This document shows, one piece after another, positions 43,343 through 60,122 of a stretch of 64,000 nucleotides of DNA. Both the position numbers and the translations under genes were made by a program. The stretch spans positions 1 to 64,000 of the forward strand of contig CANJQH010000004.1 in the NCBI GenBank assembly GCA_947476335.1. Direction: 5' to 3'. The notes beneath the pieces were generated by a model. The model ran no database searches. It saw nothing but the letters and a program-made list of their open reading frames with translations, and was not told where the DNA came from. Source of the stretch: Anaerolineae bacterium. GTDB lineage: Bacteria; Chloroflexota; Anaerolineae; J036; Brachytrichaceae. Within the stretch, counting starts at the first letter, position 1; each line of letters begins with the position of its first letter.

Positions 43343-44674
43343 ATGCTTTTGATCATCGATGCCAACCTGATTTCGCCTGACGGCTGTCGCAAGGCCGATA
43401 TTCTGATCGAAGGTGAGCGCATCATCGCCGTCGCCGACGCAGGTGCGGATGCTGCGCTGCGTGCGCGCGCGACGCACGTCGTCGATGCCGCCGGCCTGCT
43501 GGCGTTTCCTGGCCTCATCGATGTGCACACACATTTGCGTGAGCCGGGTGGTGAGCATAAGGAAGACTTCCACAGCGGAACGAGCGCTGCGCTGGCGGGT
43601 GGCGTCACGACCGTGTTTGGCATGCCGAATACACAGCCCGCGCTGACCGATGCGGCTGCGCTCGATATGGCGCTGGCACGTGCGGCTGCGAGTGCGGTGT
43701 GCGATTTTGGACTTTTTCTCGGTGCGACGAACACGAATGCCGGCTTGAAGATGGCGGCGCCGGAGATGCACGAATGCGGCCTGAAGATGTACATGGGCAG
43801 CAGCACCGGCGATTTGCTCGTCGAAGATTTCGGCTTGCAATTGGCGCACTTCGAACAATATCCGCGTGAGCGCGTCATCGCTGTGCATGCCGAGCATGAG
43901 CAGGCGGTGCGCGCGTTTGCTGCGCGCCGCCTGCGCCGGCCGCCCGTGTGCGCGGAAATCGAAACGGGGCGCGCAATTGCGCTGGCCGAAGCGACGGGTC
44001 ATCGCCTGCATATTTGCCACGTCTCGACGAGGCGTGAGCTGGAGCAGATCGTCGCTGCGCGCGCGCGCGGCGTGCCTGTGACGTGTGAAGTCGCGCCGCA
44101 CCATTTGTTCTTTACGACGGGCGGCCGCTGGTTGTGGGATGACGTACCGCGCCCCGTTGCTGCGCCCGATTCGTTTTTCGAAATGAATCCGCCGCTGCGT
44201 GAGGCGGATGACGCACGCTTTCTATGGAACAACCTGGCACAGTTCGATTGCATTGCGACCGACCATGCGCCGCACACGCTTGCGGAAAAGCACAGCGCGC
44301 GGCCGCCGATGGGGCTGCCGGGTCTTGAAGATATGCTCCCGCTGCTGCTCACGGCTGTGCATGCCGGGCGACTGCGTCTGGAGGACATCGCCCGACTGTG
44401 CTGTGACGGCCCGGCACGCACGTTTTCCATCGCACGCAAAGGTACAATCATGCCCGGCTACGATGCAGACATTACGCTTGTCGATGCGGCTCGTGAGCAT
44501 GAGCTTGGAGCAGGGCGCATCTATAGCAAATGTGGATGGAGTGCGTTCGCCGGATTCCGCGCACGCGGCGCTGTGCATTCAGTGTATGTGCGCGGAAGCG
44601 TGGCATTCGATGATGGGATGATCGTAGCGCAGCCGGGCAGCGGCCGACGTATCGAGCAGGCGCATCGCGCATGA
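43343..44674 (+). CDS. pyrC: Dihydroorotase / cyclic amidohydrolase
   Basis: 443 residues. FPGLIDVHTHLREPG (metal His pair), LHICHVSTRRELE (His) and CIATDHAPHTLAEK (Asp) are the dihydroorotase-allantoinase motifs; LKMYMGSSTG supplies a likely bridging Lys. The class-I dihydroorotase converts carbamoyl-aspartate to dihydroorotate in pyrimidine synthesis. Allantoinase is the main alternative, but FEMNPPLREADD favours dihydroorotase. pyrG is in the same window but not linked. The upstream region is largely MITE B3, leaving only 9 nt between the element and the start. Confidence 0.87.
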   Translation: MLLIIDANLISPDGCRKADILIEGERIIAVADAGADAALRARATHVVDAAGLLAFPGLIDVHTHLREPGGEHKEDFHSGTSAALAGGVTTVFGMPNTQPALTDAAALDMALARAAASAVCDFGLFLGATNTNAGLKMAAPEMHECGLKMYMGSSTGDLLVEDFGLQLAHFEQYPRERVIAVHAEHEQAVRAFAARRLRRPPVCAEIETGRAIALAEATGHRLHICHVSTRRELEQIVAARARGVPVTCEVAPHHLFFTTGGRWLWDDVPRPVAAPDSFFEMNPPLREADDARFLWNNLAQFDCIATDHAPHTLAEKHSARPPMGLPGLEDMLPLLLTAVHAGRLRLEDIARLCCDGPARTFSIARKGTIMPGYDADITLVDAAREHELGAGRIYSKCGWSAFAGFRARGAVHSVYVRGSVAFDDGMIVAQPGSGRRIEQAHRA

Positions 44675-44687
44675 AAGTCGTGACAAC

Positions 44688-45521
44688 ATGACCCAGGAAC
44701 TGAGGCAGGTCATCACCAATCGAATTCTTACGCTGCTGGCATTGATCGCCATGGCGCCGGCGTTATTGCTGGTGATCGATCTGCCTGTGCGCAATTATTC
44801 GATCGATATTCTTGGCGCGCCGTTGCCACTGCAGTTTGGCGTGGATACGCTGCTCATCACGCTTGTACCGGTGCTCACGATCGCCGGCGTTGACTGGGTG
44901 TTGCGCGAACATCCGGCAGTGCGGCGGGGTGATGTGGTGTATCTGTTCCCTTTTTGGATCGCACCTGGACTGGGAACGCTGGCATTGTGCCTGTTGCTCA
45001 CGCGTATTTCAACCTGGCCGCTGTGGATCGCTGCGCTGATCGTCGGTGTTGTTGTGATCGGCATTCTGATCAACGCCGAGTATGGTGCGTTGTCGTCCGA
45101 CCTTGCTGGTTACGCAAATTCGCGCTTGGCCGTATCTGGGCTGACCTATGTGATTGCGTATGTGTTGTTCGCGGTGATTTATGTGCAGCGCGAACGCACC
45201 GTCATTAGTGCGACGCTGATGGCCGTGACGACGTTTTTGATTTCGATCGAGCTGCTTGCGCCGCACAGAATCGGCCTTGGCAAAGCAGCGCTGAATGCTG
45301 CGTTGCTGGCGTTTCTGATTGCGCAGGCGACGTGGGCAATGAATTACTGGAACATCTCGACATGGAGCGCCGGCGTGTTGCTGCTGACGTGGTTGTACGT
45401 CGGCGTTGGTGTGTCGCAGGAATTCCATGAAGGCCAGCCCGCGCGCGGTGTGCTCGTTGAGTACGGCGTGGTCACAATGGTTGCGCTCGTCGTTGTGTGG
45501 CTTTTGGCAGGCAGCCGGTGA
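44688..45521 (+). CDS. Conserved integral membrane protein, unknown function
   Basis: 277 residues with about eight hydrophobic helices separated by short loops. It begins MTQELRQVITNRILTLLALI and ends in a helix VVTMVALVVVWLLAGSR. No catalytic motif was recognised. The start ATG 44688 is 13 nt after the dihydroorotase stop, suggesting co-transcription. The cytoplasmic loop VQRERTVIS and the loop VGVSQEFHEGQPARG are the only polar stretches. It is probably a lineage-specific membrane protein. Confidence 0.65.
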   Translation: MTQELRQVITNRILTLLALIAMAPALLLVIDLPVRNYSIDILGAPLPLQFGVDTLLITLVPVLTIAGVDWVLREHPAVRRGDVVYLFPFWIAPGLGTLALCLLLTRISTWPLWIAALIVGVVVIGILINAEYGALSSDLAGYANSRLAVSGLTYVIAYVLFAVIYVQRERTVISATLMAVTTFLISIELLAPHRIGLGKAALNAALLAFLIAQATWAMNYWNISTWSAGVLLLTWLYVGVGVSQEFHEGQPARGVLVEYGVVTMVALVVVWLLAGSR

Positions 45522-45594
45522 ATGAGTGGGTGTGCCTGCTCGGAGTCGGCATCGTGAAATGCCGACATAAAGTTGAGCGAGTGTGAATTTGCAG

Positions 45595-45639
45595 AACGGT
45601 TTTGCAAAGCTGTTTTGTAAAACCGTTTTGTAAAACCGT
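45595..45639. repeat. Tandem and inverted GTTTTGTAAAAC repeat
   Basis: GTTTTGTAAAACC-like units are repeated three times just upstream of the sulfite-oxidase-like gene. Each unit is itself palindromic, so the block could fold as a hairpin or serve as an operator array. Confidence 0.8.
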
Positions 45640-45650
45640 ATGAGGAGTCG

Positions 45651-46301
45651 ATGATGAATTTGTTTAATCCACGAAAAGATCGCGAGAAGGATTTGCAGGA
45701 GCAGGGGCGCATTCCACCCGGACAGGCGCTGACGGAAAAATTCCCTGTATTGCATTACGGATCGGTTCCGCGTTACGACCTGAACAGCTGGACCTTCAGC
45801 ATCAGTGGCGAGGTGCTTGAGCCGCGCACGTTCACGTGGGCAGAATTTCTTCAGCTGCCGATGCGTGAGATCACGATGGATATTCATTGCGTGACGCGCT
45901 GGAGCAAATTTGATACGGTGTGGAAGGGTGTGCATCTGCAGGACCTGATCGATCAGAAAATCGTGCAGCCCAAACCGAGTGCGAAATTTATTATTGAGCA
46001 CTGCGAATACGGATTCACGACGAACCTTGACATCAAGCATTTTCTGAAGCCGACGACGCTGATGGCGATTGAATACGATGGAAAACCACTCGATGCTGAT
46101 CACGGATATCCGCTGCGCGTTGTGGTGGGTGCGGTGAAGGAATCGGCACAGGATCCGGATACGCGTTATTTCTGGAAGGGTGGCAAATGGTTGCGCTCGC
46201 TGGAATTCACCAGCGTGGACCATCCGGGCTTCTGGGAACAAGCCGGGTATCACAACATTGCGCGTGTGTGGCCTGAAGAACGTTTCGAAGGGAGCTGGTA
46301 G
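45651..46301 (+). CDS. Sulfite oxidase-like molybdopterin oxidoreductase
   Basis: 216 residues of the sulfite oxidase / MsrP fold. TMDIHCVTRWSKFDTVWKG carries the molybdenum-ligating Cys (IHCVTRWS). GYPLRVVVGAVKES and YFWKGGKWLRSLEF follow. No signal peptide, so it is probably cytoplasmic, like the compact YuiH-type proteins; substrate unknown. Preceded by TGAGGAG ribosome site 8 nt before ATG 45651. The palindromic tandem repeat upstream could be regulatory. A MoaD-like protein is encoded 10 kb away. Confidence 0.88.
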   Translation: MMNLFNPRKDREKDLQEQGRIPPGQALTEKFPVLHYGSVPRYDLNSWTFSISGEVLEPRTFTWAEFLQLPMREITMDIHCVTRWSKFDTVWKGVHLQDLIDQKIVQPKPSAKFIIEHCEYGFTTNLDIKHFLKPTTLMAIEYDGKPLDADHGYPLRVVVGAVKESAQDPDTRYFWKGGKWLRSLEFTSVDHPGFWEQAGYHNIARVWPEERFEGSW

Positions 46302-46335
46302 GGCAGCCCGCGTTTTCTTAATTGGAGTAAATGTC

Positions 46336-47649
46336 GTGGCCTTCATCGAGTTCATCGTTGCAGGCACAGCGTTCGAGGATCGAGCGCTGTTTGCGGAGAT
46401 GTTGCGCCTTGGAGATGAGCTGTTGCTCGTGCGCGATCCGCACAATCCAAATGATGTCAGCGCAATTCAGTTGATCCTGCCGCCGAGCGATGTGGTTGGA
46501 CATGTGCCACGTCATATCGCCGTCGAACTTTCTTTTCTGCTCGATCGGATTATGGAGCAGCATCGTCCTGTTGCGTTTTATGCGCGCGTGTTCGAATTGC
46601 TCCGTGATCCGATTATTGGCGATTTTCGCATCAGCGTTACCGTTGATCTGCCAGACGACTGGGTGATTCATTTACGCAGCGTGGCACAAGATCATTATGG
46701 TGACGTACGCGCATATGTTCTTGAACAGACGGCGCGCGCGAGCTATGTCATGCTGCGCTGCAGCGCTGAGCAGATGCTCACGGCGCGTGATGTGTTGGTT
46801 GCCAACGGCTTTGTCGTCGATCGCAGTGGTTTCGCGAGCCGGCCTGCTTCCAATGGGCAGCGCTATGCGTGGTTCATTCGTGTTGGATCTCTCACGCAGT
46901 ATCGCTATGCCGACGTGCATGCGTTGTTGAAGCGTGCAGGGTTTTCCTGTGACGATGAAATTCATCAGCTTGAGCAGATGCGCGCTGAACAGCTGCGACA
47001 GGCGCAGGAATCGTTGTGGCAGGCGCGCCGTCTCGAACAGAACGCAAAAAGTCTGCGTGAGCAGCATGAGATGCAGCTGATCGAAAAAGAAGATCTCATC
47101 AAAGACCTGCGTTTTCAACTGGATCAGCTGCGGCCGACGCAGCCCGTTGCGGCCGCACCAGAACGGATGCGCGTCGATCGCATGTGGCTTGCTCGGTTGC
47201 TTGATTCGATCGCGGATTCGCTCAGGCCGGAGCAGATGCTTGATGTGATCGAAGGTCAGTACCCCGATCGGGTCGTTGTGCTTTCTTCGGCGCGCAGCTC
47301 CGCGCATGATTCGGAAAAGTTTCGCCATCGCCGCCGCTTGGCGATACTGTTGCTCAGCCTGGCCACTGACTACTGGTCTGCATTGCAAATGGGGCAGGGC
47401 GATGTCGAAGCGCGCAAAGTGTTCGGCGATGACTATGCGGCGCAGGAATCGGAGAAGGTTGAGAAGACGCCGCGACTGCGACGCAAGCGCACATTCACCT
47501 ATGAAGGCCGCACTCTTTATATGTCACAGCATCTGAAGATCGGCGTGAAGGACGGATCTGTTGAGACGATTCGCGTGCACTTTGCGTGGGATGAGCCAAG
47601 CCGCACGATTGTCATCGGTCACTGCGGCGTGCATTTGCCGATTGATTAA
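46336..47649 (+). CDS. HIRAN-domain coiled-coil protein of unknown function
   Basis: About 437 residues. Residues 1-75 look like a HIRAN domain (IVAGTAFEDRALF, LVRDPHNPNDVSAIQL, VGHVPRHIAVELS), known to bind DNA ends or stalled forks in SNF2 helicases and as a stand-alone module. A Gln/Glu-rich coiled coil spans about 205-275. The C-terminal region ends with a conserved-looking block: FTYEGRTLYMSQHLKIGVKD then TIRVHFAWDE and IVIGHCGVHLPID, with paired His and Cys that could bind metal. I recognise no enzyme. GTG 46336 is chosen on the GGAG 8 nt upstream. It precedes mutS2 by 31 nt. Confidence 0.65.
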   Translation: MAFIEFIVAGTAFEDRALFAEMLRLGDELLLVRDPHNPNDVSAIQLILPPSDVVGHVPRHIAVELSFLLDRIMEQHRPVAFYARVFELLRDPIIGDFRISVTVDLPDDWVIHLRSVAQDHYGDVRAYVLEQTARASYVMLRCSAEQMLTARDVLVANGFVVDRSGFASRPASNGQRYAWFIRVGSLTQYRYADVHALLKRAGFSCDDEIHQLEQMRAEQLRQAQESLWQARRLEQNAKSLREQHEMQLIEKEDLIKDLRFQLDQLRPTQPVAAAPERMRVDRMWLARLLDSIADSLRPEQMLDVIEGQYPDRVVVLSSARSSAHDSEKFRHRRRLAILLLSLATDYWSALQMGQGDVEARKVFGDDYAAQESEKVEKTPRLRRKRTFTYEGRTLYMSQHLKIGVKDGSVETIRVHFAWDEPSRTIVIGHCGVHLPID

Positions 47650-54986: not shown

Positions 54987-55616
54987 TTAATGTGCGGTTG
55001 TGGCGCGGAAGAGCATCGGCAGCCCGCCGGCACAGCCGTAGGCGATCAGGATGTAGCGCAATATTTTTCCTGCAATCGTCGCGCTTAAAAAAATAGTGGG
55101 TGGCATTTTCAGCATGCCGGCCAGCAGTCCGCCGACGTCGAACAGTGGATTGGGGATGAGCGCGAGTATGAATATTACCAACGGACCGGCGCGGCGCATG
55201 TAGTAGCGCATGAGTTTGTATATGCGGCCGTGGGGCACGACTGCGTTGCCGCCTGAGCCGGCCATGTATGCGGTGTATTCCCCCAGCGCCGAGCCAAGGC
55301 CGCCGACGACGCCGACGGCGAGTGGGTGTGCCGCATCGGCGAATGCGCAGGTCAATGCCAGGCCGAACGGCGCCGGCAGGATCACCGTCGCGCTGTTCAG
55401 CAGGTTGATGACAAAGATGCCCAGCAGCCCGAAGCGCCCCAGCCCGCGCAGTGCGTCGTGGAAATACAGGCCGAGACCTGCTGCGATGAATGTGATGAGT
55501 ACCGCAGCCAGCAGCGGCAGAATTTGTCGCAGCCGCTGCATGCGCGTTGGAGGGCTTGTGCGGGCGGATTCGCTTGTGCGGGCGGATTCGCTTGTGCGGG
55601 CGGATTTATTGTGCAT
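54987..55616 (-). CDS. VTT-domain (SNARE-associated/DedA-like) membrane protein
   Basis: 209 residues. Six or so hydrophobic segments. GLLGIFVINLLNSATVILPAP, GSALGEYTAYMAGSGG and LALIPNPLFDVGGLLAGML are typical of YqaA/VTT proteins, relatives of DedA thought to move lipids or ions across the membrane. The N-terminal 21 residues are a SARTSE hexapeptide repeat encoded by an 18-bp tandem repeat; M26 could be the original start. It is followed upstream by the MoaD-like gene on the same strand. Confidence 0.8.
   Translation of the reverse strand: MHNKSARTSESARTSESARTSPPTRMQRLRQILPLLAAVLITFIAAGLGLYFHDALRGLGRFGLLGIFVINLLNSATVILPAPFGLALTCAFADAAHPLAVGVVGGLGSALGEYTAYMAGSGGNAVVPHGRIYKLMRYYMRRAGPLVIFILALIPNPLFDVGGLLAGMLKMPPTIFLSATIAGKILRYILIAYGCAGGLPMLFRATTAH
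55555..55606 (-). repeat. 18-bp in-frame tandem repeat at the VTT gene start
   Basis: CTTGTGCGGGCGGATTCG occurs almost three times, encoding SARTSE repeats on the minus strand. Confidence 0.93.
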
Positions 55617-55942: not shown

Positions 55943-56033
55943 CAACAAAATCTCACAACAAAATCTCACAACAAAATCTCACAACAAAATCTCACAACAA
56001 AACCTCACAACAAAACCTCACAACAAAACCTCG
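55943..56033. repeat. 13-bp tandem repeat, seven copies
   Basis: CAACAAAATCTCA is repeated four times, followed by three copies of the CAACAAAACCTC(A/G) variant. The 310-bp divergent gap between the MoaD-like gene and the peptide ABC operon holds this block and a -10-like site; no gene is seen. Confidence 0.97.
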
Positions 56034-56217: not shown

Positions 56218-57969
56218 ATGACCCCGAAAAATCGTTTGTCTGCTGTTCTTAGCATGACTGCGGCTGCTGCGGTTTTGTTGAGCGCATGTGGCGCTCCCGC
56301 TGCGCCCAAGCCGACTGCGGCGCCCGCCGCCACTGCGGCACCGGCTGCGACGGAAGCACCGGCTGCGACGGAAGCGCCGAAGGCAACGGAAGCGCCGAAG
56401 GCAACGGAAGCGCCGGCTGCTGGCGCCGCCGCCAAGATCGAAGCGCCTGATTGCAAGTACGGTGGCTCGATGAAGTCCATCGAAGCTGTTGATGCGACGA
56501 CTGTGAAGTTCACGCTCTGCTCGCCTGACCCGGCGTTCCCCTATAAGCTGGCCGGCGATCCGTTCAGCATCCTCGACTCGAAGGATCTCGAGACCACGGG
56601 CGGCGATGCAGTCAAGATCAGCGAAGCCCCAAATGGAACGGGCGCGTACAAGCTGAAGGAATGGAAGCGTGGCGAGAGCCTGACGTTTGAGGCCAACGCC
56701 GATTACTACGGGGAGAAGGCCAAGACCCCCACCTTCGTGCTGCGCTGGTCGAAGGAAGCGGCTCAGCGCCTGCTCGAGCTGCAGTCCGGCAACACCGATG
56801 GCATCGCCAATGTCGGCCCCGAGGACTTCGAGAAGGTCGAGGGCGATTCCGCTCTCAAGCTCGTCGAAGTGCCGGCTGCCAACATCATGTACATCGGCTT
56901 CAACAACACGGTCGCCCCGTTCGATGACCCGAAGGTCCGCCAGGCCTTCTCGTACGGCATCAACCGCGAGCGCATTGTCAAGGACTTCTACCCGCGCGGC
57001 TCGTCCGTTGCCGGCAGCTTCGTGCCGGATAGCTTCGCCGTCGGCGCCTCGCCGAACGTGAAGTGGCCCACATACGACCCGGAGAAGGCCAAGGCGCTGC
57101 TGAAGGAAGCAGGCAAGGAAAACCTCGAAGTCTCGATCTCGTATCGCGACGTCGTGCGTGGCTACCTGCCTTCACCCAGCACCGTGGCGCAGGAAATCCA
57201 GGCGCAGCTCAAGGAAATCGGCGTCAATGTCAAGATTGACGTCAAGGAATCCGGTGCGTTCCTCGATTCCGTCACCGCTGGCAAGGAAGGCTTCTACATG
57301 CTCGGCTGGGGTGCGGACTACCCGGATGCGACCAACTTCCTCGACTATCACTTCGGCCCGCAGAACGCACAGTTCGGCAAGCCGAACGATGAGATCGTCG
57401 CGCTGTTGAAGGAAGCCGCTTCGACGGCCGATGTCGCTAAGCGCCAGGCCGCTTACGACAAGGTCAACCAGATGCTCGTAGACACTGTGCCGATGATCCC
57501 CGTCGCACACGGTGGTTCGGCGCTCGCCTTCAAGGCTTCGGCCGAAGGCGCGCATGCCAACCCGGTTAGCGCCGTCAAATTCAGCCTGATCAAGGGCGAG
57601 AAGGACACGCTGGTCTACACGCAGAACGCCGAGCCGATCAGCCTCTTCCCCAACGATGAGAGCGATGGCGAGACGTTCAACGCCACCGCGCAGATCTATG
57701 ACGGCCTGCTGGCTTTCAAGACCGGCACGGGCGACGTCGAACCGGCGCTGGCTGAGAGCTACTCCGCCAATGCCGAGCTGACCGAGTGGACTTTCAAGCT
57801 CCGCCCGGGCGTCAAGTTCCACAACGGCGCGACCTTCGAGGCCGACGACGTTCTCGCCACCTTTGGCGCGATGTGGGATGTCAAGAACCCGGCTCACAAG
57901 GGCCGCACCGGCAACTTCGAATACTGGACGGCCTACTTTGGCACGTTCCTGAACGCGCCGGCGAAGTAA
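56218..57969 (+). CDS. ABC transporter substrate-binding lipoprotein (family 5), apparently circularly permuted
   Basis: 583 residues. Lipoprotein signal with VLLSAC (Cys24), then a PAATEAPK-type linker to about residue 72. The next 390 residues correspond to the middle and C-terminal parts of SBP_bac_5 proteins (KSIEAVDATTVKFTL, NGTGAYKLKEW, DPKVRQAFSYGINRERIV, WGADYPDATNF). The normal N-terminal part then appears at the C-terminus: DTLVYTQNAEPISLFPNDES (464 on), QIYDGLLAFKTGTGDVEPALAESY, WTFKLRPGVKFHNGATFEADDV. Both lobes could still form. It should bind peptides or similar ligands for the two permeases downstream. AAGGAG lies upstream of the ATG, and a terminator-like hairpin follows. Confidence 0.92.
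   Translation: MTPKNRLSAVLSMTAAAAVLLSACGAPAAPKPTAAPAATAAPAATEAPAATEAPKATEAPKATEAPAAGAAAKIEAPDCKYGGSMKSIEAVDATTVKFTLCSPDPAFPYKLAGDPFSILDSKDLETTGGDAVKISEAPNGTGAYKLKEWKRGESLTFEANADYYGEKAKTPTFVLRWSKEAAQRLLELQSGNTDGIANVGPEDFEKVEGDSALKLVEVPAANIMYIGFNNTVAPFDDPKVRQAFSYGINRERIVKDFYPRGSSVAGSFVPDSFAVGASPNVKWPTYDPEKAKALLKEAGKENLEVSISYRDVVRGYLPSPSTVAQEIQAQLKEIGVNVKIDVKESGAFLDSVTAGKEGFYMLGWGADYPDATNFLDYHFGPQNAQFGKPNDEIVALLKEAASTADVAKRQAAYDKVNQMLVDTVPMIPVAHGGSALAFKASAEGAHANPVSAVKFSLIKGEKDTLVYTQNAEPISLFPNDESDGETFNATAQIYDGLLAFKTGTGDVEPALAESYSANAELTEWTFKLRPGVKFHNGATFEADDVLATFGAMWDVKNPAHKGRTGNFEYWTAYFGTFLNAPAK
56344..56424 (+). repeat. 18-bp in-frame repeat in the lipoprotein linker
   Basis: GCGACGGAAGCGCCGAAG and close variants occur four times, encoding ATEAPK/ATEAPA between the lipid anchor and the binding domain. 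Confidence 0.85.
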
Positions 57970-58035
57970 GTCGATGACTGATGGCGGCCGGCGGACTACC
58001 GACGGCTAACCACAGACAATCGATGGCAGCTGCAG

Positions 58036-58071
58036 CAGCCGCACTCGCAAGGGTGCGGCTGTTGTTTTTTT
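58036..58071 (+). terminator. Intercistronic terminator after the binding-protein gene
   Basis: A CAGCCGCAC / GTGCGGCTG stem (9 bp, 8-nt loop) followed by TTGTTTTTTT. As in the liv operon, it separates the binding protein from the permeases. Confidence 0.85.
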
Positions 58072-58100: not shown

Positions 58101-59177
58101 ATGGCACAGTTTGTCACACGCCGATTCGTTCTGCTGTTGCCGGTGCTAGTCGGCATCCTGATCGTCACGTTCACCCTCGTTCGGCTGATCCCTGGGGATC
58201 CATGTAAGGCCATGCTGGGGGAGCGCGCTACCGAGGCCAAGTGCAGTGCATTTCGCGAGCGCTTTGGCCTGAATGACTCGATCCCAGTTCAGTTCGCCCG
58301 CTATATTGGCCGCGTGGTTCAGGGTGATTTTGGCACGTCGATCCAGACTGGGCGCCCGGTCACGGATGTGCTCGCTGAACGGCTGCCGATGACGGTTGAG
58401 CTTACATTCTTTGCCGTCATCTTTGCCTCCGCTGCGGGGGTGCTGCTTGGCGTGGTATCTGCCGTGCGGCAGAACAGCGCCGGCGACGTTGCTGCGATGG
58501 TCATCGCCAATACCGGCGTCTCCATGCCTATTTTCTGGCTTGGCTTGATGCTGGCTTATATTTTTGCGCTCGCGCTCAAGGGCACGTTTTTTCAGCTGCC
58601 ACCTTCTGGGCGACTGGCGGCTGGTGCAAATCTGCCATCGCTCATGAAGATCTGGAACATCACTGAGGAAGATGGAATGCGCCGCTTTCTCACCATGTTT
58701 TTGTCGAATTCTGTGTTGCTCAGCGCGCTAATTCAGGGGAATTTCCCAGTATTTGTCGATGGGCTGCGCCATATGGTGCTCCCTTCGCTTGCTGTCGGTA
58801 CGATCTCGATGTCCGTCATCGCCCGCATGACCCGTGGTGCCATGCTCGATGTGCTGACGCAGGACTATGTGCGCGTGGCGCGCGCCAAAGGCCTTGCGGA
58901 GCGCGCTGTCATCCTGAAGCATGCGCTTCGCAATGCGCTCGTGCCCATCGTCACTGTGATTGGCCTGCAAATCGGTGGACTGCTTTCCGGCGCCGTGCTA
59001 ACCGAAACTGTGTTCAATCTGCCTGGCATGGGCACCGCCATCGTTACTGCGATCACTGCGCGTGATTACCCGGTGGTGCAGGCTTTCACCGTCGTCGTCG
59101 CGATGATCTTTGTGCTGGTCAACCTTGTGGTGGACCTGAGCTACGCATACCTGAATCCGCGCATTCGCGTGAGCTGA
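58101..59177 (+). CDS. Peptide-type ABC permease (DppB/OppB family)
   Basis: 358 residues. The N-terminal FVTRRFVLLLPVLVGILIVTF, LIPGDP and the EAA-like RVARAKGLAERAVILKHALRNALVPIVT, followed by LSGAVLTETVFNLPGMG, are diagnostic of DppB-like permeases. The family forms the first half of the membrane channel. ATG 58101 is preferred; the open frame upstream spans the terminator hairpin. It is paired with the DppC-like permease that starts 3 nt after its stop. No ATPase genes (dppD/F) follow, so those subunits must be encoded elsewhere. Confidence 0.92.
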   Translation: MAQFVTRRFVLLLPVLVGILIVTFTLVRLIPGDPCKAMLGERATEAKCSAFRERFGLNDSIPVQFARYIGRVVQGDFGTSIQTGRPVTDVLAERLPMTVELTFFAVIFASAAGVLLGVVSAVRQNSAGDVAAMVIANTGVSMPIFWLGLMLAYIFALALKGTFFQLPPSGRLAAGANLPSLMKIWNITEEDGMRRFLTMFLSNSVLLSALIQGNFPVFVDGLRHMVLPSLAVGTISMSVIARMTRGAMLDVLTQDYVRVARAKGLAERAVILKHALRNALVPIVTVIGLQIGGLLSGAVLTETVFNLPGMGTAIVTAITARDYPVVQAFTVVVAMIFVLVNLVVDLSYAYLNPRIRVS

Positions 59178-59180
59178 TCC

Positions 59181-60122
59181 ATGGCTGAATCGAACAACGC
59201 TTCCTCGCCTTCGCTCCCCATCGCGCCAATTCGACCGCTGGTGAGCTCCGAATCGCCGCTGCGCCGTACTTTGCGACGCCTGCTGCACAATCGCTCGGCT
59301 CAGGTGGGTATGGGCATGCTGGCATTTCTGATTCTGATCGCCTTCTCTGCGAGCATCATCGCTCCGTATGATCCGATCAAGCGCGTGCCCGATGTGAAGC
59401 GGCGCTCCGCGCCGTGTGTGCACGTTCTCGGCTGCGACGCCGACAAGAGCCAGCACCTGATGGGCATCGACGGCAATTTCCGTGATCTTTTCTCGCGGGT
59501 GCTTTATGGTTCGCGCTTGTCGCTGCAGATCGGCCTTGCCACTGTGACTGCGGCGGTGGTCATTGGCACGCTGCTTGGCGCTGTCGCCGGTTATATCGGC
59601 GGCTGGCTGGACAACCTGATTATGCGCATCATGGACGTCTTTCTGGCGTTCCCAAGCCTGCTGCTGGCCATTGCCATCGTCACGGTGCTGGGGCAGGGGC
59701 TGATCAACACGCTGCTGGCGGTGGCCATCGTGTCGATTCCGGTTTATGCGCGCGTGGTGCGCGCCAGCGTCATCACGGTGAAGGACCTGGACTATATTTC
59801 TGCGTCTTATGCGCTGGGGACGCCGCGCGCACGCGTACTCTTTACGCGCATCCTGCCGAACGCACTCACGCCGTTGATTGTGGTGGCGACGCTCGGCATC
59901 GCCGGTGCCATCCTCGAAGCCGCGGGCCTTTCATTTCTCGGCCTTGGCGCCGAGCCGCCGACGCCGGAGTGGGGCCTTATGCTCGGCGAAGAGCGCAACA
60001 GCGTCTTCAACGCCCCACATCTCGTTTTCTTCCCCGGCATCGCCATTATGGTCACTGTGCTGGCATTCAATCTGCTCGGCGACGGCCTGCGTGATGCACT
60101 CGATCCGCGGCGGAAGGTGTGA
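59181..60122 (+). CDS. Peptide-type ABC permease (DppC/OppC family)
   Basis: 313 residues. The HLMGIDGNFRDLFSRVLYGSRLSL segment and the EAA loop SASYALGTPRARVLFTRILPNAL, followed by EAAGLSFLGLGAEPPTPEWG, identify the DppC family. The segment PCVHVLGCDADKSQ with two cysteines in the first periplasmic loop replaces the usual HPLGTDxxGRD start. It pairs with the DppB-like permease. MITE A11 begins 7 nt after the stop, at the point where ATPase genes often occur in such operons. Confidence 0.92.
   Translation: MAESNNASSPSLPIAPIRPLVSSESPLRRTLRRLLHNRSAQVGMGMLAFLILIAFSASIIAPYDPIKRVPDVKRRSAPCVHVLGCDADKSQHLMGIDGNFRDLFSRVLYGSRLSLQIGLATVTAAVVIGTLLGAVAGYIGGWLDNLIMRIMDVFLAFPSLLLAIAIVTVLGQGLINTLLAVAIVSIPVYARVVRASVITVKDLDYISASYALGTPRARVLFTRILPNALTPLIVVATLGIAGAILEAAGLSFLGLGAEPPTPEWGLMLGEERNSVFNAPHLVFFPGIAIMVTVLAFNLLGDGLRDALDPRRKV

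Follow-up and report, generated by a model that had tools for sequence, protein, structure and literature searches.

The gene on the plus strand at positions 56218–57969 of the window, i.e., the whole stretch of 64,000 nucleotides of Anaerolineae DNA that was analysed, raises the question of whether a family 5 ABC solute-binding protein (SBP_bac_5) can be complete and working with its chain order circularly permuted, and, if so, why such an order is kept. The frame is open throughout and encodes 583 amino acids, referred to here as P0001; all of its parts lie on the plus strand. It opens with the signal peptide of a lipoprotein (56218–56289), whose lipobox L-S-A-C with Cys24 was recognized in the sequence and by a lipobox scan. 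The Thr/Glu/Ala/Pro repeat linker that the original prediction had placed between the lipid anchor and a new N-terminus is indeed found after Cys24 (residues 25–72, 48 residues, 56290–56433), and Tandem Repeats Finder (TRF) reports an 18-bp tandem repeat within its coding DNA, at 56341–56420. Segment 1 (residues 73–460, 56434–57597) is equivalent by phmmer and Pfam to approximately residues 126–496 of DppA and holds the remainder of subdomain Ib, the hinge, lobe II, and the native C-terminus. At the join, LIKGEK / DTLVYTQNAEP (57598–57636, placed from alignments and coordinates), the old C-terminus is directly continuous with the old mature N-terminus, without a signal peptide in between. Segment 2 (residues 463–583, 57604–57966), which phmmer and the Pfam stretch match to approximately residues 2–116 of DppA, is the native N-terminal part of lobe I. 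Beside the new N-terminus, alignment conservation shows a co-conserved pair, Cys79 and Cys101 (56452–56520), for which a disulfide is possible; we infer that it could perhaps serve as a staple for the first strand past the new N-terminus.

P0001 is a single complete SBP_bac_5 (DppA-type) domain with a circularly permuted chain order. The Pfam SBP_bac_5 profile (PF00496) matches it at 8e-88 with 295.5 bits, against a cut-off of 32.4, and the match falls into two stretches: residues 75–384 correspond to profile positions 61–366, and the DNA at 57736–57903 corresponds, by Pfam in a genome search, to positions 2–57. The profile order is therefore inverted, and P0001 does not meet the native order of described SBP_bac_5 members, which is a property of those members rather than part of the PF00496 cut-off. 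The same swap is seen by phmmer against E. coli DppA (1dpe), where P0001 residues 87–450 align to 126–496 and residues 464–571 to 2–116. When the chain was rotated into native order, as the original prediction had suggested as a check, a single match spanning profile positions 2–366 of 368 was obtained, with 310.2 bits instead of 295.5 bits in two pieces. Thus the permuted order read from the motifs, which are found in the sequence in which they had been listed, holds. Three of its details required adjustment. The segment order was right; however, the domain resumes near residues 83–87, and the native N-terminus starts at residue 463. The statement that nothing is lost stands insofar as nothing is duplicated and nearly the whole profile is covered, but a loop of approximately 9 residues, equivalent to DppA 117–125, is unmatched on both sides of the cut. 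The placement of the swap between neighbours in the fold needs sharpening, as the cut lies inside subdomain Ib and not at the lobe hinge. P0001 scores 214 bits against the NCBIfam DppA equivalog, well below the cut-off of 1005, and is therefore not filed as DppA itself.

The expectation that the permuted chain could still fold is supported by prediction. AlphaFold2 gave a model of the permuted chain with a pLDDT of 85.7 and a pTM of 0.84 using a 27-row alignment in which native relatives were entered as separate N and C pieces; with a shallow 10-row alignment the model was poor (pLDDT 54.6). The predicted model shows the two-lobed SBP_bac_5 fold (lobe I, consisting of Ia and Ib, and lobe II), in which the long strands 213–228 and 426–439 are the likely lobe crossings. 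Foldseek ranks DppA, HbpA2, and GbpA first, with E-values down to 5e-31, and its best alignments end at about 380–390 columns because a sequential method cannot follow the permutation. The point from which the lipid anchor emerges has moved from subdomain Ia to Ib; that this alters the geometry of membrane tethering and of the hinge, as the original prediction proposed, is inferred only.

The search for other proteins with the same order succeeded. In 60 related genomes, a match spanning the junction was found at 29 loci beyond that of P0001 itself, at 31–78% identity, one of which (G005) is split into two adjacent frames. A separate collection holds ten named Anaerolineae records with the order of P0001, one of them a fragment. 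We refer to this group as family I; an alignment of 29 sequences contains invariant residues in both segments, and native-order relatives, e.g., L172, group next to it in the tree. In several members, the permuted domain is preceded by another binding domain, either SBP_bac_3 (L031, L033, L036, L037, L042, and L044), Peripla_BP_6 (L034), or both (L040), so that some lineages have attached fusion partners at the new N-terminus. The exact starts of these fusion frames are not fixed, because stop-to-stop frames were scanned. L040/L134 (G043:C7), L031, L033, L034, L036, L037, L042, and L044 thus each combine two or three different binding-protein domains (Peripla_BP_6, SBP_bac_3, and permuted SBP_bac_5) in one open frame, and such a row of receptors within a single chain is unusual. 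In L043:1477-3549 (minus strand), the stretch before the permuted domain resembles a LysM repeat by eye (NPDLIEIGWKLDVP), without a Pfam call.

Permuted members of the wider family were sought with a profile independent of the cut site, in which the SBP5 C-terminus is joined to the N-terminus and native proteins are entered as virtual joins. Native proteins, even those used in building it, hit this junction profile in two halves, whereas permuted ones match end to end. Chloroflexota gave at least 40 end-to-end matches in at least 39 of 251 genomes, and Bacillota (249 genomes from the phylum of a Clostridiaceae genome, i.e., Bacillota in the wide sense) at least 24 join-crossing matches in at least 19 genomes. 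No permuted SBP5 was found among the candidates scored in 249 genomes of Pseudomonadota or in 146 of Cyanobacteriota. Fisher tests were applied to the difference between phyla, and all counts are lower bounds, since only a dozen to some twenty candidates were scored per genome and the best matches listed. Matches were mapped against a native-order model, which gave a total of 96 distinct permuted frames from all searches; the breakpoint check leaves out five Bacillota matches, i.e., those of G437, G565, and G557 and second matches in other genomes. The cuts fall at four sites: a (model positions 140–165), the site of P0001; b (312–320), at the hinge, used by families II, V, VI, and IX; c (378–402), after AKxLLxEAGY; and d (433–436), before GWxxDY. 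On viral contigs, three loci were found, all in native order once mapped, and plasmids gave only distant matches, those listed having 32–34% identity in two pieces. By lipobox scan, most permuted families are lipoproteins; family VIII and part of family VII have no lipobox. The permuted Bacillota proteins L142–L146, L148, L149, L166, and L173 are without one, implying a secreted or periplasmic form that is not lipid-anchored.

A hinge-cut example occurs in the genome of P0001 itself, where the profile search found a second inverted PF00496 pair on contig C1 at 44347–46521. This protein, P0002, is a 725-residue frame in which lobe II comes first (HPILSDVRVRQAI after lipobox and linker) and the chain ends at WEHIDFNFNVR, so that the cut, WEHIDFNFNVR / HPILSDVRVRQAI, lies at the hinge crossover, a placement inferred from the sequence and the P0001 model. 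In MppA, the chain passes between the lobes at 286–287 and 507–508 (PMC6022919). The P0002 cut would lie just past the first crossover, so that one of the two covalent crossovers would be severed. Its native-order relatives L080–L083 have both segments in the usual order. At E ≤ 1e-30, P0002 matches are found in 20 of 120 genomes of the class, a few native-order relatives included. Like P0001, P0002 is an SBP_bac_5 lipoprotein with both lobes complete, followed by DppB and DppC; in contrast, it is cut at the hinge, belongs to another clade, and has two oligo_HPY ATPases downstream of the permeases.

The permutation arose repeatedly and independently in the wider SBP_bac_5 family. When 29 permuted sequences, rotated, were placed in one tree with 29 native ones, chain order had to change nine times (the best estimate), and well-supported branches force at least seven of these changes. 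A single clade of all permuted SBP5s was rejected (AU test, p = 2.7e-70), as was one of the four site-c families (p = 2.3e-8), whereas family I as one clade was not (p = 0.23). Order changes alone do not distinguish gains from returns, and long branches leave the placements of V with VI, and of X, unsure. L136:3400-5205 (plus strand), in native order, groups with the permuted family I member L042 with good support; native order may have been regained there, the same site may have been permuted a second time, or the tree may be wrong. The most clear-cut individual case is L167, on a 6-kb contig, which matches the native L061 in two complementary pieces at 62% and 56% identity with one clean hinge cut. 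Duplication followed by deletion is the generally known route to circular permutations. Tandem-duplicate intermediates were not seen beside the permuted genes. In L182:1755-4049 (plus strand), the N-terminal ~230 residues occur twice as an identical copy, followed by the rest of a native SBP_bac_5, which may be a recent internal duplication or an assembly error.

As to why the permuted order is kept, it may be selectively neutral, i.e., accidents of duplication and deletion left a foldable protein whose function and tethering are unchanged, a proposal that we would place slightly short of an even call. Permuted and native forms share ligand residues and operon partners, the cuts recur at a few permissive places, and tethering does not explain the families without lipobox. 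However, neutrality sits less well with the very uneven spread over phyla and with how long the permuted form has persisted throughout a class. This proposal addresses only the retention of the order and does not conflict with P0001 being a working permuted peptide-binding protein. Alternatively, selection may have favoured the new order for shifting the point of tethering or for making the N-terminus available for fusion to further binding domains. The family I fusions and the predominance of lipoproteins are consistent with selection, and tethering was proposed by its authors as the reason for the permutation of TpMglB-2 (PMC4990184). However, tethering cannot be the whole reason, since families without lipobox exist, and P0001 itself has only a linker at its new N-terminus; we regard selection of this kind as possible but rather doubtful. 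An evenly balanced proposition is the broader one that SBP_bac_5 is a natural hotspot of permutation (at least seven changes, with nine as the best estimate, at four sites, in Chloroflexota and Bacillota), that the hinge-cut families with one crossover severed still serve a peptide-type ABC transporter, and that the order is kept as it alters the options for tethering, export, or fusion.

As for function, R383 and D436 of DppA (precursor numbering) hold the dipeptide by salt bridges, and in assembled DppABCDF, the E41–R42 scoop of DppB fills the dipeptide site of DppA by binding this Arg/Asp pair (PMC12136057). By alignment, both residues are present in P0001, as Arg314 (codon 57157–57159; DppA R383) and Asp367 (codon 57316–57318; D408 mature, D436 precursor), and each is conserved in 28 of the 29 sequences of the family I alignment. 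Downstream on the same strand lie the genes of a DppB-type permease (58101–59177, open frame from 57981; BPD_transp_1 by Pfam and alignment), in which the E41–R42 scoop residues are conserved, and of a DppC-type permease (59181–60122; OppC_N and BPD_transp_1 by Pfam), so that cognate DppB and DppC adjoin P0001. In several families, the majority of permuted loci likewise have DppB–DppC directly downstream in the same orientation. A terminator-like hairpin between the P0001 and DppB genes (58032–58065, plus strand; 15-bp stem, then T6) is a consensus match only and would suit a higher output of binding protein than of permease. A motif scan found no ATPase near the family I loci except at L134, and SBP–DppB–DppC may thus be incomplete as a unit; however, the genome has nine oligo_HPY matches on contigs other than that of P0001, from which it is inferred that ATPases are shared from other operons. 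The lack of nearby ATPases could also be read as a sign that P0001 no longer takes part in transport and serves as a sensor or adhesin at the cell surface, but the adjoining DppB and DppC and the conservation of both the ligand and the scoop residues make this quite unlikely. Given these partners and residues, P0001 most likely continues to supply a transporter with peptides, although peptide as the ligand is inferred from sequence in the absence of binding data.

Thus, we consider it highly probable, without experimental support, that the product of the gene is a functional, circularly permuted peptide-binding protein of the DppA type that is anchored by a lipid. By the most likely route, which is inferred, an ancestral native-order gene would have been duplicated in tandem, after which the first copy would have lost its 5′ part and the second its 3′ part, leaving a chain that begins within subdomain Ib, passes through lobe II, reaches the old C-terminus, and goes on into the old mature N-terminus. 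This chain is predicted to fold to the usual two-lobed clamp and would use Arg314 and Asp367 to bind a short peptide before passing it to the DppB/DppC encoded next door, presumably powered by the shared ATPases.

It is highly improbable that P0001 is instead an N-terminally truncated SBP fused to a partial second copy. Its two separate Pfam stretches would allow such a fusion, but they are complementary without overlap and rotation gives a single uninterrupted match; the fusion is refuted because the two stretches share none of the profile positions. Accordingly, the C-terminal 120 residues form neither a second partial copy nor, given their DppA match and the predicted DppA-like fold, an unrelated domain of the protein. 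A first lobe hidden at the N-terminus was considered and rejected, as only the linker lies there. An assembly error or pseudogene, for which the 125-contig draft state of the source genome could be cited, can hardly be entertained, since the order is kept in dozens of Chloroflexota genomes, including independent assemblies such as the single-contig genomes G021, G036, G053, and G056, with residues invariant across 29 sequences.

Compared with E. coli DppA (SBP_bac_5, a cluster C SBP), P0001 has all segments, the ligand Arg and Asp, the DppB/DppC partners, and the predicted fold, but its chain begins at the equivalent of DppA residue ~126 and finishes at that of ~116, and it is lipid-anchored through a long linker, whereas DppA is in native order and free in the periplasm. 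The only natural permuted SBP found in the open-access literature is TpMglB-2 (Tp0684), a glucose-binding lipoprotein of Treponema pallidum encoded in an ABC-transporter gene cluster (PMC4990184). No permuted SBP_bac_5 was found there; subscription journals were outside the search, and an earlier description is thus not excluded. Both TpMglB-2 and P0001 are naturally permuted ABC solute-binding lipoproteins with a complete fold and joined old termini. However, the fold of TpMglB-2 is that of the sugar-binding cluster B (Type I), to which a fourth crossover has been added (PMC4990184), whereas P0001 is of the cluster C peptide type, and permuted SBP_bac_5 proteins, unlike TpMglB-2, have several cut sites and origins. 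Engineered permuted binding proteins in biosensors rest on the same principle, that two-lobed binders tolerate new termini, but are laboratory-made. Naturally occurring circular permutation within one two-lobed binding protein seems to be rare; in SBP_bac_5, which is among the most common families of bacterial receptors, it has occurred repeatedly, at different sites, and native-order relatives are known for several cases, the L167/L061 pair among them. With this natural series one can ask where the chain of a clamp-type receptor may be broken, whether such a receptor requires both covalent hinge strands, and by what route permuted genes originate. Biosensor design could draw on cut sites that nature has already tested, and there is a warning for annotation pipelines, in which permuted SBPs read as two partial matches.

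Two further tandem repeats lie upstream of the P0001 gene. At 55943–56032 of the window, a 13-bp unit, CAACAAAATCTCA, is repeated 6.9 times with 98% matches, and at 55554–55606 an 18-bp unit is present in 2.9 copies, which opens a minus-strand frame resembling a membrane protein and encodes a repeated SARTSE peptide.
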